33,522 nucleotides of DNA, from the NCBI GenBank assembly GCA_021413805.1, contig JAIOPR010000278.1, forward strand, positions 1 to 33,522. Reading direction: 5' to 3'. A program made the translations under genes and the position numbers. The notes under the pieces were generated by a model. The model saw nothing but the letters and a program-made list of their open reading frames with translations, searched no databases and was not told where the DNA came from. The stretch is from Planctomycetota bacterium. GTDB taxonomy: Bacteria > Planctomycetota > MHYJ01 > WSZJ01. Position 1 is the stretch's first letter, and the number at the start of each line of letters is the position of its first letter. Positions 8,573 through 15,741 of the stretch are shown in pieces.

Positions 8573-9547
8573 GTGAGCCCAGGCTCCGAGCAGCACGGCC
8601 TCGTCCATGCGGTCACCTTCGAAGGCGACGGCTCCGGGATGGCTCTCGCCTGGAACGAGATTGCGTCCTCCCAAAAACCGATCTGGATCCACCTCGATCG
8701 CACGTCGCCGGCGGCGCAGGAATGGATCAAGGGAGCTTCGGGACTCGATCCCCACACTTGCGAAGCGCTTCTGCAGGAGGAAACCCGTCCCCGCGTGGTC
8801 GTGGGAGATGCGGGCATCCTGCTGATCCTGCGGGGAGTGAACCTGAACCCGGGAAGCGATCCCGAGGACATGATCTCGATCCGCTGCTGGGTCGAGCCGC
8901 GGCGCGTGATCACGCTTCGCCGCGAAAAAGTCATGGCGATCCAGGATTTGCGGGACCGGTTGACGGTGGGGAAAGGGCCGATCGGTCCGGCCGATTTCGT
9001 CGTCGCGCTGGCCGGCGGACTGGTGGCGAGAATGAGCGCCGTGGTGACGGACATTGAGGAAGTGGTGGACGACTTCGAGACGCGGGTGCTCGAAAATGCG
9101 GAGAAGGGGCTGCGGTACAAGCTTTCCGAAACCCGCCGGACGACGATCATGCTCCGGCGGTACCTCGCGCCGCAGAAGGATGCGCTGGGCCAGCTGTTCG
9201 GCAGCGTCTGCCCGTGGCTTACCGCCGTCGATCGCAGCCACCTGCGCGAGGTCCTGGACAGGACCGCGCGCTGCGTCGAGGATCTCGATGCCGCCCGCGA
9301 ACGGACGCAGATCATCCACGAAGAGCTCGCCGCCCGCATGGCGGAACAGATGAACCGCACCATGTATCTCGTCTCAATCGTGACTTCCGTCTTTCTCCCG
9401 CTCGGCCTGATCACCGGCCTCCTCGGGATCAACGTCGGCGGAATTCCGGGGACCGAAAGCCACTACGCGTTCGCCGCCGTTTGCGGGCTGATGGCGGTCA
9501 TCATCGTGGTTCAGGTCTTCCTGTTCAGGCGGATGAAATGGCTGTGA
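8573..9547 (+). CDS. zntB: CorA-like / ZntB-type divalent cation transporter
   Basis: GTG start. IWIHLDRTSPAAQEWI...LLQEETRPRVVVGDAGILLILRGVNLNPGSDPEDMISIRCWVEPRRVITLRRE...SVFLPLGLITGLLGINVGGIPGTESHYAF, with a two-TM C-terminus bearing GIN. Confidence 0.93.
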   Translation: MSPGSEQHGLVHAVTFEGDGSGMALAWNEIASSQKPIWIHLDRTSPAAQEWIKGASGLDPHTCEALLQEETRPRVVVGDAGILLILRGVNLNPGSDPEDMISIRCWVEPRRVITLRREKVMAIQDLRDRLTVGKGPIGPADFVVALAGGLVARMSAVVTDIEEVVDDFETRVLENAEKGLRYKLSETRRTTIMLRRYLAPQKDALGQLFGSVCPWLTAVDRSHLREVLDRTARCVEDLDAARERTQIIHEELAARMAEQMNRTMYLVSIVTSVFLPLGLITGLLGINVGGIPGTESHYAFAAVCGLMAVIIVVQVFLFRRMKWL

Positions 9548-9564: not shown

Positions 9565-11082
9565 ATGCGGCATTCGCTCGCTGCGTTCGCATTGCTGCTG
9601 GTCGTCCTCGGCGTGGCGCGTGCCGAGGACCCACCCTCGTGGAACCCGGCGAAGACGTACGTCCTGGTCGCGAGCGTCATCGAGTGGCCCGACAAGGCCC
9701 TCGCGGCGTTCAAGGACGCTCGGCGGGACGAAGCGCTCGTTGAGCAGTTCAAGGCGGATGGCGTGCCGGCCGCGAATGTCGTTTTCTTGAAAGACAAGGA
9801 CGCCACGCTGGCGGCGCTTCGGCGGGAGCTCCACGCCCTCGCAGGCCGGGCCGGAGAGGGCAGCACGTTCATTTTCTACTTCCAGGGCCACGGGCTCACG
9901 CGGAAAGAGAAGACCTTTCTCGCGTGCTACGATGTGAACACGAAAGACCTCGCGACGGCTTTCGACGTGGACGAACTCTTCCCGATCCTGGACAAGGAAT
10001 GGAAAGGCGATCGTCTGCTGCTCCTCGGCGACTGCTGCCACGCCGGCGCCCTCGGCACCGTCGTGCAGCGCTTCGAGGGAAAAACCGCCGTCCGCGCCGC
10101 GTGCCTCACGTCTTCCACCGCTTCCAACCGCTCCACCGAGCACTGGACGTTCACGGAAGCGCTGATCACGGCGCTCGCGGGGGACGGCGCGGTAGACCGG
10201 GACCGGGATGGAAAGATCACCTTCGGCGAGGTGGACCTGTTCGCGCACGACGAGATGAAGTTCCGCGAGGACCAGCTGACGCGCGGGAAACGGACGAAGA
10301 ATTTCGAGGAAGCATTCGCGTTCCGGGCGGTAGCGGCGGACCGGCCGGCGCCGGCGAAGGTCCAGGGCGAGCGGCAGGTCGGTGAATTTCTCGAAGCGTG
10401 CGACCGAGACGGGAAGTGGTACGTCGCGCAGATCCTTGCGATCAAGGACGACCAGTTCCGCGTGCACTACTCGGGATGGGATTCGAAATGGGACGAATGG
10501 GTCGGCGCGGCGAAGCTTCGCCCGATCGCGCGCCCGAAACTCAAGGTCGGCGAGCGGTACGAAGTCGAGTGGCAGAAGGACCAGTGGTTCCTCGCGACCG
10601 TCACGAAAGCCGAGGAGGACTGGTTCTACTTCGTCCATTACGAGGGTGAGGAAGGCGACGACGACGAGTGGGTGACCGCGAGCAAGACCCGCACCCCCGC
10701 CGCGGGCACGAAGCCCAAACCGCCGGAATTCGCCGCGCTCGCGCCCCGAGCCCTCGTCAAAGGCGACGCCGTCGCCGCCCGCTGGAAACGCGCCTGGTTC
10801 CTCGCGGAGGTGACTTCGATCGACGGGGAGATGCACGCGGTCCGCTACGCCGACGGCGAGAACGGCTCCCTCACCGCGGCGGATCTCGTGCCGGTCGCGA
10901 AAGCGTCCGAGGTCGAGGTCGGCGACCGCGTCCTCGCATGCTGGAACGGAAAGCCGCAGATGTACCCGGGCGTGGTGGCGTCGAAGACGGAGAAGGACTT
11001 TTCGGTGAAGTGGGAAGATGGGAGCAAGGCGACGAGTGTGCCGATCGGGCAGGTGGCGCGGATCAAGGCGGCGGGAAAATGA
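9565..11082 (+). CDS. caspase family (peptidase C14-like) secreted protein with EF-hand-like loop and C-terminal Tudor/chromo-barrel-like repeats
   Basis: Signal peptide MRHSLAAFALLLVVLGVARAED. His box FIFYFQGHG, Cys box LLLLGDCCHAG, p10-like TEALITALAG. EF-hand loop DRDRDGKITFGE. Then WYVAQILAIKDDQFRVHYSGWDSKWDEWV and three further WF/Wx..V.. repeats to the C-terminus. Confidence 0.88.
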   Translation: MRHSLAAFALLLVVLGVARAEDPPSWNPAKTYVLVASVIEWPDKALAAFKDARRDEALVEQFKADGVPAANVVFLKDKDATLAALRRELHALAGRAGEGSTFIFYFQGHGLTRKEKTFLACYDVNTKDLATAFDVDELFPILDKEWKGDRLLLLGDCCHAGALGTVVQRFEGKTAVRAACLTSSTASNRSTEHWTFTEALITALAGDGAVDRDRDGKITFGEVDLFAHDEMKFREDQLTRGKRTKNFEEAFAFRAVAADRPAPAKVQGERQVGEFLEACDRDGKWYVAQILAIKDDQFRVHYSGWDSKWDEWVGAAKLRPIARPKLKVGERYEVEWQKDQWFLATVTKAEEDWFYFVHYEGEEGDDDEWVTASKTRTPAAGTKPKPPEFAALAPRALVKGDAVAARWKRAWFLAEVTSIDGEMHAVRYADGENGSLTAADLVPVAKASEVEVGDRVLACWNGKPQMYPGVVASKTEKDFSVKWEDGSKATSVPIGQVARIKAAGK

Positions 11083-12945: not shown

Positions 12946-15741
12946 TCACCGATTTCCGGAAGGATTGACCCGCTTAGCGGCGCTTTTCGGCCGCTGGCCC
13001 CGCGTTTCCCGGTACCACGTCTCGCCAGGGGGCGTCAGCCGGCACGCCGCGGCGAGGCGGAGGCCGTTGGTGAAGAACGCAGCGTGGATGTGGTTGACGC
13101 CGGAATGGCTGGCGCGGTTGCGCGGCGGGGCCTGCGAGAACGCGCCGCCTTTGCCGATGCGCATCGTGCCGTAGCCGAGCCCCGGGTCGTTCAGGCACCA
13201 GTTCCACGAGTTCCCGGCGAGCTGGCGGATGCCGTACGGCGACTCGTCCCACGGGGTCGCCGTGACCGGCACCGGGTAAAATCCGTCGCCGTGCGACCCG
13301 TAGGAATTGCACAGGCTCGTGTCGAAATGCCTCCCCCACGGATACCCCCGCCCGTCGACGCCGCGCGCGGCTTTTTCGCACTGGTCTTCGTGCAGAAGCG
13401 TGTACAGCCGCCCGTCGCGCATCGATTTCCAGCGTGCATACGCCATCGCATCGGCCCACGAGATGCCGAGCACGGGCCAGTCGGCATGCCAGTCCGCGGA
13501 GGCGGTGTCGAGGCGGCGGGCCTGCGCGCGCAACTCCGGTGAAGCGGCCGCGAGCCACGCCGCGTCCGGCACGGCGTACCCGCCCCCCGGCAGCCGCGGC
13601 CAGTACGTCACCCCCTCTTTTCCCATCCGCGGTACCCGCATCGCCGCCTCTTCGGCCGAAGAGCGGTCAAGGTCCATGAGAAACGCGGCGTACTCCGCGC
13701 ACGTCACGGGCGATTTCGAGACGAAGAAATCGGCGACATCCACGATCGCCGCCGGGCCGGAAGCCGGGTTCCCGGGATCGCCCTGCGAGTGGAACGCGCC
13801 CCCCGCGATCAGCTCAAACCCCGCGGGGATTTCCCCCTCGGCGAACACCGTCACCTCGACCTCGACCCGCTCGAGGCGCTTCACCTCCACCGGCACGCGC
13901 ACCGGCGGACCTTTTCCGGGAACGACGACGACCAGCCATGAGCCCACGGGAAGCGCCCGGTTCTTGACGGGCGTGGGGCCGAGGTGAAGGCCGGGGCCGC
14001 GCGGGCGGTAAGGCGAGTTGCCGAAGGCGCGGTCAAGGGCCGCGGACGGACAGGGCAGGCCGCCTTCCAGCGCGCTGACGGGGACGAGAACGCGGTCTAT
14101 TTCCTCGAAGCGCCAGGCCCACGCCTCGGCGCCAGGAGCGGGCTTCGTGTCGCAAGCGGGGGAGTGGACGCGCAGTGCAATCGGCGCGGCCAGCTCGAGT
14201 TCGGCCACGCACTCGACCTGCGGTCCCTCCAGCCGGCGGCCGGACCACGGGTGGAACCCGAGGACGTTGAGTCGATCCGGCGGCACGTCGTGCGCTTCGC
14301 GAAGGCACGCGCAAGCGTACGCGCTCGTGCGAAGCGTCAGCCGGCCTTCGCCGCGCAGCCGCTCGTTCAGCGCGCCGTCGTTCCAGCGCTCGGCCTGCGC
14401 GCGATGCAGGATCATCCCGCGCCGGTCGTCGGCTGCTTCCGCCTTCACGAAACCGTCCCAGTGGAATTCGGCCATGAGGCGGCGGGCTTCGGCGTGGTCC
14501 GGGGAGTTCGCGAGGGCGGCGTCGAGCGACGCGTTCGCTTGCGCTGCCAACCGCGCGGCTTCCCGGGCGAATTGCTCGGCCCGGTCTTCGGCGGCCCAGA
14601 GCCGCATCTTCTCTTCCCGCGGCGCGTGGTTCGGGATTTCGCGGTCCAGCCGCCCGGCATCCGTCCGCGCGGCCGCCGCTTCCGATTCCAGAGCCCCGGA
14701 CTTCGCCAGGTCCGCCGCGGCCTGCGCCGCGAACTCCGTGGCGAGCGCGCGGCGCCGTTCCCGCTCTCGGGTTCCTTCGAGGTGCGCGTCCAGTTCCGCG
14801 GCGAGTGCCGAGGCGTCGGCGAAGCGGTCCTCCTTGCGGTGGGAGAGAGCGCGGAGGCAGGCGGTTTCGAGGTCGGCGGGGACGTCGGGCCACCTCGAAC
14901 TCGCCGCGGTGCCGGGGCGCGCCGGAATCTCGGAGGCCCGCCGGCGGACGACGGCACTCGGGGCCTCCGGGGCCGAAGAGACGACCTTGCTCAGGATCTC
15001 CAGCGCGGTGTTCCCCGTGAATGGCGGCCGTCCGCAGAGGATCTCGTAGAGAATCGCGCCGAGCGCGTAGACGTCGCTCCGCGCGTCAATCGCTTCGATG
15101 TCGCCCGACGCCTGCTCGGGGGGCATGTACTCCGGCGTGCCCATCACGTCGCCGGCGAGCGTCAGCGCGTCTCCGCCGCCCGCCGTGCCTTTCATCGGCT
15201 CCGCGGCTTCCCCCGGCGCCCGCGCCAACCCCCAGTCCACGACGAGCGTTTCGCCGAATTCGCCGAGCATGATGTTCGACGGCTTGAGATCGCGGTGAAT
15301 CACGCCCCGGGAGTGCGCGAACGCCAGGGCACGGCAGGCGTCGCGAAGCGCTTCCACGAGCCGCCGTTGCGGCCACCCCGGCGTCGGCGTTCCTCGCCGC
15401 ATACCTCCGAGGACATCCGCCATGTCGCGCCCGGCAATTTTCTTCATCGCGAAGAAAATCTCGGCCGGTCCCTTGCCCGCCGGCAGGACGCCGAGGTCGT
15501 ACACCGGCACGATGTTGGGGTGCTCCAGCCGCGCCGTGATGCGTCCTTCGCGGCGGAAGCGCTCGACCAGTTCGAGCGGCGCGCCATCGAGGAGGAGTTT
15601 CAGCGCGACAGCCCGGCCGGTGCGCGCGTCCTGTGCTTCGACGACACGCCCGAGGCCGCCGCGGCCGAGTTCCCGGCCGAGGGTGTAGCGCTTCTCCTTG
15701 TCGACGGACGCAGGCTTCTGCTTTCGGTCACCTTTCTTCAC
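12946..15741 (-). CDS. Ser/Thr protein kinase fused to C-terminal formylglycine-generating-enzyme-like (SUMF1/FGE) domain
   Basis: YTLGRELGRGGLGRVVEAQD...AVALKLLLDG...GVIHRDLKPSNIMLG...VVDWGLAR...GTPEYMPPEQASG. C-terminus: FFVSKSPVTCAEYAAFL...PVLGISWADAMAYARWKSMRDGRLYTLLHEDQCEKAARGVDGRGYPWG..YGIRQLAGNSWNWCLND..RIGKGGAFSQ. GTG start. Confidence 0.95.
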   Translation of the reverse strand: MKKGDRKQKPASVDKEKRYTLGRELGRGGLGRVVEAQDARTGRAVALKLLLDGAPLELVERFRREGRITARLEHPNIVPVYDLGVLPAGKGPAEIFFAMKKIAGRDMADVLGGMRRGTPTPGWPQRRLVEALRDACRALAFAHSRGVIHRDLKPSNIMLGEFGETLVVDWGLARAPGEAAEPMKGTAGGGDALTLAGDVMGTPEYMPPEQASGDIEAIDARSDVYALGAILYEILCGRPPFTGNTALEILSKVVSSAPEAPSAVVRRRASEIPARPGTAASSRWPDVPADLETACLRALSHRKEDRFADASALAAELDAHLEGTRERERRRALATEFAAQAAADLAKSGALESEAAAARTDAGRLDREIPNHAPREEKMRLWAAEDRAEQFAREAARLAAQANASLDAALANSPDHAEARRLMAEFHWDGFVKAEAADDRRGMILHRAQAERWNDGALNERLRGEGRLTLRTSAYACACLREAHDVPPDRLNVLGFHPWSGRRLEGPQVECVAELELAAPIALRVHSPACDTKPAPGAEAWAWRFEEIDRVLVPVSALEGGLPCPSAALDRAFGNSPYRPRGPGLHLGPTPVKNRALPVGSWLVVVVPGKGPPVRVPVEVKRLERVEVEVTVFAEGEIPAGFELIAGGAFHSQGDPGNPASGPAAIVDVADFFVSKSPVTCAEYAAFLMDLDRSSAEEAAMRVPRMGKEGVTYWPRLPGGGYAVPDAAWLAAASPELRAQARRLDTASADWHADWPVLGISWADAMAYARWKSMRDGRLYTLLHEDQCEKAARGVDGRGYPWGRHFDTSLCNSYGSHGDGFYPVPVTATPWDESPYGIRQLAGNSWNWCLNDPGLGYGTMRIGKGGAFSQAPPRNRASHSGVNHIHAAFFTNGLRLAAACRLTPPGETWYRETRGQRPKSAAKRVNPSGNR

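Follow-up and report, generated by a model that had tools for sequence, protein, structure and literature searches.

Small modules of the Tudor and chromo type are used by eukaryotes to read chemical marks on histones. In bacteria, fusions of secreted chromo-like domains with caspase-like peptidases were described by Kaur, Iyer, Subramanian and Aravind (2018), and according to the main text of that paper the caspase-like fusion is one of the commonest contexts of secreted bacterial chromo-like domains, with carriers in planctomycetes, cyanobacteria, bacteroidetes and chloroflexi (PMC5906684). Methylated lysine-like groups in the envelope or matrix were proposed there as ligands, and secreted bacterial barrels were put forward as the ancestors of the eukaryotic mark-reading domains (PMC5906684, main text). 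On the peptidase side the closest described systems are the bacterial orthocaspases and metacaspases of family C14. Orthocaspases have been reviewed as Ca2+-independent and without p10, and a characterised bacterial orthocaspase was reported to be Ca2+-independent (PMC5756287). In TbMCA2 the Ca2+ site is made up of four Asp residues, and Asp211 is part of the proposed S1 pocket (PMC4357240).

Here we analyze a gene at positions 9565-11082 of a planctomycete contig, of which 33,522 nucleotides were studied (the window). The encoded protein shares with bacterial orthocaspases and metacaspases the p20 signature, the His/Cys dyad and an Asp at the position of TbMCA2 Asp211, but differs from the orthocaspases by its predicted export, a C-terminal Tudor array and an EF-hand-type loop after the core. 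It joins a caspase-like domain to tandem chromo-like barrels, as do the fusions in the main text of Kaur et al. (2018), and like them has aromatic cage residues; a signal peptide, which those fusions also have, is putative here and was read by eye. Compared to that text it differs in having four mixed barrels, the first MRG-like and the fourth Crb2/PHF20-like, a barrel 2 without a cage, and the EF-hand-type loop. No description of mixed cage types, of cage loss in barrel 2 or of a family-wide EF loop was found in open-access full text, which for PMC5906684 means the text without figures and supplement, and an identical four-barrel protein may be listed in the latter. The original prediction for this gene implied that the architecture was new. 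However, the combination of a secreted chromo-like domain and a caspase, planctomycetes included, had already appeared in 2018, together with the same idea of its function (PMC5906684). The domain combination has been known since then; the window protein exemplifies it clearly, is well conserved and has a longer array.

Gene structure and surroundings

The open reading frame is real and runs on the forward strand from the ATG at 9565 to the stop codon ending at 11082 (505 amino acids), in agreement with the original coordinates. An alternative upstream start at GTG 9214 is unlikely, since the frame would run into the preceding CorA gene; a signal-peptide-like leader starts at ATG 9565. Pfam, PDB profiles and AlphaFold2/Foldseek together support the predicted exported C14 peptidase carrying an EF-hand-type loop and about four Tudor/chromo-barrel-like domains. 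Conservation was assessed in an alignment of 25 homologues, seven with four barrels and 18 with two. The features are as follows:

9565..11082, +, whole gene: predicted exported C14 caspase homologue with an EF-hand-type loop and four SH3-like (Tudor/chromo-like) barrels (Pfam, AlphaFold2, homologues)
9565..9624, +, putative Sec-type signal peptide, cleavage expected after ARA (residue 20) (sequence read by eye)
9637..10155, +, caspase p20-like region, approximately residues 25-197, with H109, C158 and the S1 aspartate D156 (PF00656, 5.2e-7; metacaspase profile, 1.2e-9)
9889..9891, +, codon of catalytic His109 (metacaspase profile alignment; 25/25 homologues)
10036..10038, +, codon of catalytic Cys158, the second Cys of DCC (aligned to the metacaspase catalytic Cys; 25/25)
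10195..10230, +, EF-hand-type loop, residues 211-222 (conservation, EF-hand profile matches)
10369..10533, +, barrel 1, approximately residues 269-323, Tudor-knot/MRG/PHF20L1-like, full aromatic cage predicted (Pfam, PDB profiles, AlphaFold2)
10534..10698, +, barrel 2, approximately residues 324-378, Tudor-knot-like; the four-barrel clade no longer has the cage residues (AlphaFold2, Pfam, alignment)
10747..10902, +, barrel 3, approximately residues 395-446, Agenet/SETDB1-like, sequence match weak, fold confident (AlphaFold2, Pfam)
10906..11070, +, barrel 4, approximately residues 448-502, like the second Tudor of Crb2/53BP1/PHF20, with W460, Y467, W483 and D485 (AlphaFold2, Pfam, alignment)

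The leader reads MRHSLAAFALLLVVLGVARA followed by ED, with the expected cleavage between the two. Comparable hydrophobic leaders ending in A-x-A were read by eye in the other four-barrel members, and the protein is probably exported.

A gene for a CorA-type Mg2+ transporter (PF01544, 4.8e-74; window 8573-9547, forward strand) stops 17 bp upstream of the caspase gene. The downstream genes encode a small protein that starts with a hydrophobic leader, an efflux protein of the outer membrane and a fusion of Ser/Thr protein kinase and FGE-sulfatase domains (window 12946-15741, reverse strand; Pkinase 2.2e-35, FGE-sulfatase 8e-26). A conserved operon or partner, CorA included, was rejected because none of the neighbours was found next to the gene again, either in four further genomes of the genus or in two distant carriers, and the surroundings thus give no genetic hint to a partner. 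Nor did any conserved neighbour in these six genomes suggest a substrate or a methyltransferase.

The caspase-like domain

The motifs FYFQGHG and LLGDCCHAG, proposed as the catalytic His and Cys boxes, are both present where the original prediction had placed them, as is the EF-hand-type loop at 10195..10230. The p20 profile of family C14, Peptidase_C14 (PF00656), matched with an E-value of 5.2e-7 and 30 bits against a cut-off of 21.4. In a PDB profile search, a caspase-domain profile made from 14 homologues matched metacaspase-4 (1.2e-9), the Geobacter homologue GSU0716, TbMCA2 and MALT1, and GHG and D-x-C-x-S-G line up in the alignment. The dyad characteristic of C14, H109 and C158, was found in 25/25 homologues, and so was D156, which aligns with Asp211 of TbMCA2; the second S1 Asp, in helix 1, falls beyond the alignment. 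Based on D156 and the family, a preference for Arg or Lys in P1 would be expected. The EACC1-associated caspase subfamily (NCBIfam NF047832, caspase_w_EACC1) was matched at 1.8e-14 but with 53.7 bits, below the cut-off of 140, so that the protein is a relative and not a member.

The full-length AlphaFold2 model, made from five sequences, is modest (pLDDT 72, pTM 0.44), with low values for most of residues 183-261. Residues 61-150 were well predicted, in an alpha/beta order compatible with the caspase fold. No caspase was found among the top 50 PDB matches that Foldseek listed for this model, a listing dominated by the barrels. For this reason, and because the model is modest, the assignment of a caspase fold is based on the sequence profiles.

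C14 homologues with a defective dyad are frequent in planctomycetes, where a survey found 64% of the metacaspases to have an intact dyad (PMC3501461), and the protein could on this background be a non-catalytic relic with a binding role only. We consider this very improbable, as the dyad and D156 are complete in all 25 homologues and the long open reading frame is conserved in five genomes of the genus. Since dyad and D156 are invariant here, against 64% intact in the survey, proteolytic activity appears to be under selection.

The EF-hand-type loop

The loop DRDRDGKITFGE has the form of a canonical 12-residue EF-hand loop, with ligands at positions 1, 3, 5 and 12 and a Gly at position 6. D211 and E222 were found in 25/25 homologues; position 3 is D, N or S, position 5 is D or N, and the Gly is kept in 23/25. 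At the loop, the caspase-domain profile matched the EF-hand proteins calcium binding protein 2 (2jnx, 1.3e-4) and STIM2 (0.0015), and the EF-hand Pfam score of the single sequence was below threshold. Helices predicted by AlphaFold2 at residues 195-204 and 220-238 flank the loop, both with low pLDDT.

An EF loop as the hallmark of the Tudor fusion was refuted by the nearest Tudor-less caspases, in which it was read from the sequences in 9/9 cases, some with altered positions. Tudor-less caspases with an EF-type loop after the core are L009, L011, L012 and L044-L049. A motif scan identified the loop in 5/25 and 8/22 proteins of two overlapping C14 sets, compared to less than 1% in shuffled sequences; these fractions are rough, since the scans relied on crude dyad motifs by which several proteins were missed. 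The EF-type loop is apparently a wider feature of one bacterial caspase group, and it is not mentioned in the reviews consulted here. The predicted loop may bind Ca2+ and make the protein dependent on it. The Ca2+-independence reported for an orthocaspase counts against this part of our explanation.

The EF-type segment is located between the catalytic core and the barrels, and self-inhibition with activation by ligand or Ca2+ is common in clan CD (PMC4357240). The array could therefore be an intramolecular regulator, with the barrels or the EF-type segment covering the active site, in the manner of the inhibitory segments of other clan CD enzymes, and freeing it upon binding of ligand or Ca2+. 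As the linker region is of low confidence in the full-length AlphaFold2 model we regard such masking as rather unlikely; it is compatible in part with the tethered protease that we favor below.

Four SH3-like barrels

Four SH3-like barrels are predicted to span residues 269-502 approximately. For the whole protein, Peptidase_C14, Agenet, Tudor-knot, Tudor_3, SGF29_Tudor and MBT scored above their respective Pfam cut-offs. The four repeats quoted in the original prediction are all there, with Tudor-knot in barrel 1 (4.6e-9) and barrel 2 (3.1e-4), Tudor_3 in barrel 4 (2e-9) and, in barrel 3, a weak Agenet match (0.005) under the family cut-off. For the first repeat, the proposed resemblance to Tudor-knot/chromo-barrel domains was borne out by its Pfam match and by an MRG-type cage.

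The original prediction had made the SH3/Tudor-like nature of the repeats depend on structure prediction. When the C-terminal 245 residues were modeled alone, AlphaFold2 gave a mean pLDDT of 84.5 and four successive barrels of 4-5 strands each (fragment residues 15-54, 71-110, 142-184 and 195-240). Foldseek matched them in the PDB to Agenet, SETDB1 Tudor, MBT and Spt5 KOW arrays with E-values of approximately 1e-7 to 1e-8. The TM-scores of the whole array were low (0.1-0.3), and the matches therefore support the single barrels and not their mutual arrangement. On the point that the original prediction had left to structure prediction, the outcome thus speaks for SH3/Tudor-like repeats. A specific likeness to the Spt5/DSIF KOW array, which gave the top Foldseek matches, was rejected as generic SH3-barrel similarity (TM at most 0.3, 11-15% identity). 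By hhalign, barrels 1 and 2 are closest to each other (99.6% probability), barrel 3 is near barrel 2 (96.5%) and barrel 4 is nearest barrel 3 (84%), a pattern that fits an array grown by duplication.

The solved structures most closely related to barrels 1 and 4 include the PHF20/PHF20L1 Tudor and the MRG15/MRG701 chromo barrel, with the same cage positions and spacing; these are eukaryotic nuclear readers without a protease, whereas the window protein is bacterial and predicted to be exported. The L3MBTL MBT repeats, the SETDB1 triple Tudor and the AGDP3 Agenet, found by Foldseek and sequence matches, likewise consist of tandem related barrels. These arrays lack a protease, and with the low whole-array TM-scores the matches support a likeness of the barrels and not of the arrangement between them.

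Aromatic cages and possible ligands

In barrel 1, Y302, W305 and W309 have the +3/+7 spacing of the MRG701 cage residues Y62, W65 and W69 (PMC5084153), and the triad was found in 7/7 four-barrel members. In addition W312 is invariant, and position 286 (Y286 here) is aromatic throughout the alignment. Positions 302, 305, 309 and 312 are aromatic in 7/7 four-barrel members, and in the two-barrel homologues the barrel 1 positions are aromatic except for an Asp at 309 in 3/18. Barrel 1 thus has the conserved cage residues by which secreted fusions of a caspase and chromo-like domains are recognized. Barrel 2 has an aromatic residue at position 362 in 18/18 two-barrel proteins compared to Glu in 7/7 four-barrel proteins; position 366 is D or L in the four-barrel clade, and the window protein has E362 and D366. 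Judged from the alignment, the cage of barrel 2 is lost in this clade. Barrel 3 keeps W407, W411, Y428 and D430 in 7/7 and is intermediate by its residues, so that barrels 2 and 3 are both without a predicted full cage.

Barrel 4 carries W460, Y467, W483 and D485, which correspond to W1495, Y1502, F1519 and D1521 of the 53BP1 cage, with spacings of 7, 16 (17 in 53BP1) and 2; Y1523 of 53BP1 (PMC5974088) is replaced by Ser, Thr or Ala. The barrel aligns weakly with PHF20 Tudor 2 (E 0.06), and the 53BP1/PHF20-type cage is mostly kept across the four-barrel clade. The view that all barrels but the first are cage-less was dropped, since barrel 4 has cage residues with 53BP1 spacing. In three dimensions the residues of barrels 1 and 4 would be expected to form cages. 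The Tudor-like ligand reader of the original prediction is plausible for these two barrels, but the four are not equivalent, with the cage lost in barrel 2 and intermediate in barrel 3.

Bacterial SH3 domains of parallel architecture bind peptidoglycan peptides according to the text of PMC5906684, and the cage aromatic is lost in barrel 2 of the clade and at position 309 of 3/18 two-barrel homologues. The barrels could accordingly be plain SH3-like modules binding proteins or peptidoglycan peptides without methyl-amino preference, in which the aromatic residues are structural. This is unlikely, as barrels 1 and 4 have near-invariant cage residues in which the spacing of methyl-lysine readers is kept.

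Aromatic cages in general bind quaternary ammonium groups, and the cages here are conserved. The barrels might then bind trimethylated lipid head groups (trimethylornithine lipids, phosphatidylcholine) and not methylated peptides, holding the protease on the membrane face. It was in planctomycetes that trimethylornithine lipids were first found (PMC7828035), but they are documented for planctomycetes at large and not specifically for the genus of the window, and the homologous eukaryotic domains bind peptides. We consider lipid binding distinctly unlikely. Because of the cages a methyl-amino ligand is favored, with a methylated peptide first and a quaternary-ammonium lipid as its rival.

Distribution and relatives

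The four-barrel form was found in five genomes of the genus, that of the window included, with 67-76% identity to the window protein. The two-barrel form occurs in many planctomycetes; 40 of 294 planctomycete genomes had a match at 1e-8, many of them by the caspase domain only. Homologues with as little as approximately 40% identity still show all of the features, which are therefore not due to chance. The four-barrel proteins form one clade (support 100/98), made up of the genus and two metagenome-assembled genomes (L018 and L019) labelled Verrucomicrobia and Eremiobacterota. These two are sisters within the clade, a placement that suggests lateral transfer or misbinned contigs.

Tudor-knot domains were identified in 18 of 246 planctomycete genomes, in 16 of them, judged by the positions of the matches, within the Tudor-barrel caspase family. 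In the remaining two the domain belongs to a caspase-less triple-Tudor protein, which two genomes of the genus have in addition (L086, L098, L097/L015 and L110; four planctomycete genomes, of which two belong to the same genus). This protein has a hydrophobic leader, three Tudor-like barrels and a shared C-terminal domain without assigned function, and could be a related ligand binder.

The genome of the window also contains a second, two-barrel caspase copy (C371:3-614 and C113:4771-5333; L025 and L026), which appears to be split over two contig ends, FGGDG being common to both translations at the break. Two planctomycete genomes (G031, contig C25, and G125, contig C1) have C14 caspase genes in numbers of approximately ten or more, with several of them clustered on one contig.

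Proposed function

Domain identity, the four-barrel fold, the conservation of dyad, loop and cages, and the distribution of the family are established computationally. We infer export, proteolysis, P1 specificity, Ca2+ binding, the methyl-amino ligand and the biological role. Our best explanation, to which we give a probability of roughly 60%, is an exported Arg/Lys-specific caspase-homologue protease that is tethered by methyl-amino-binding barrels and possibly tuned by Ca2+. The enzyme would be an orthocaspase/metacaspase-type protease of clan CD, family C14, acting in the periplasm or extracellularly. Its C-terminal barrels would tether it to a surface or substrate, with aromatic cages, mainly that of barrel 1 and probably also that of barrel 4, holding methylated amino groups of methyl-lysine-like peptides or quaternary-ammonium head groups. 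The N-terminal domain would cleave nearby proteins after Arg or Lys, and the EF-hand-type loop just past the catalytic core may bind Ca2+ and stabilize or activate the fold. A methyl-amino ligand was proposed independently from other examples in the text of PMC5906684. The modest full-length model, barrels 2 and 3 without full cages and the lack of conserved neighbours count against this explanation.

A bolder version, which we hold to be rather improbable, is an exported, Ca2+-gated caspase homologue with two kinds of reader barrel (MRG-type and 53BP1/PHF20-type) that seeks out methyl marks on proteins or lipids beyond the cytoplasm. If true, it would be an extracytoplasmic mark-reading protease in bacteria. 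Prokaryotic orthocaspases are viewed as not requiring Ca2+ (PMC5756287), and the EF-type loop of this caspase homologue opens that view to a direct test. With two distinct predicted cages beside an intact protease, this compact and conserved protein offers a direct handle on the ligand question, and identifying what its first and fourth barrels bind would reveal the targets of such domains outside chromatin.
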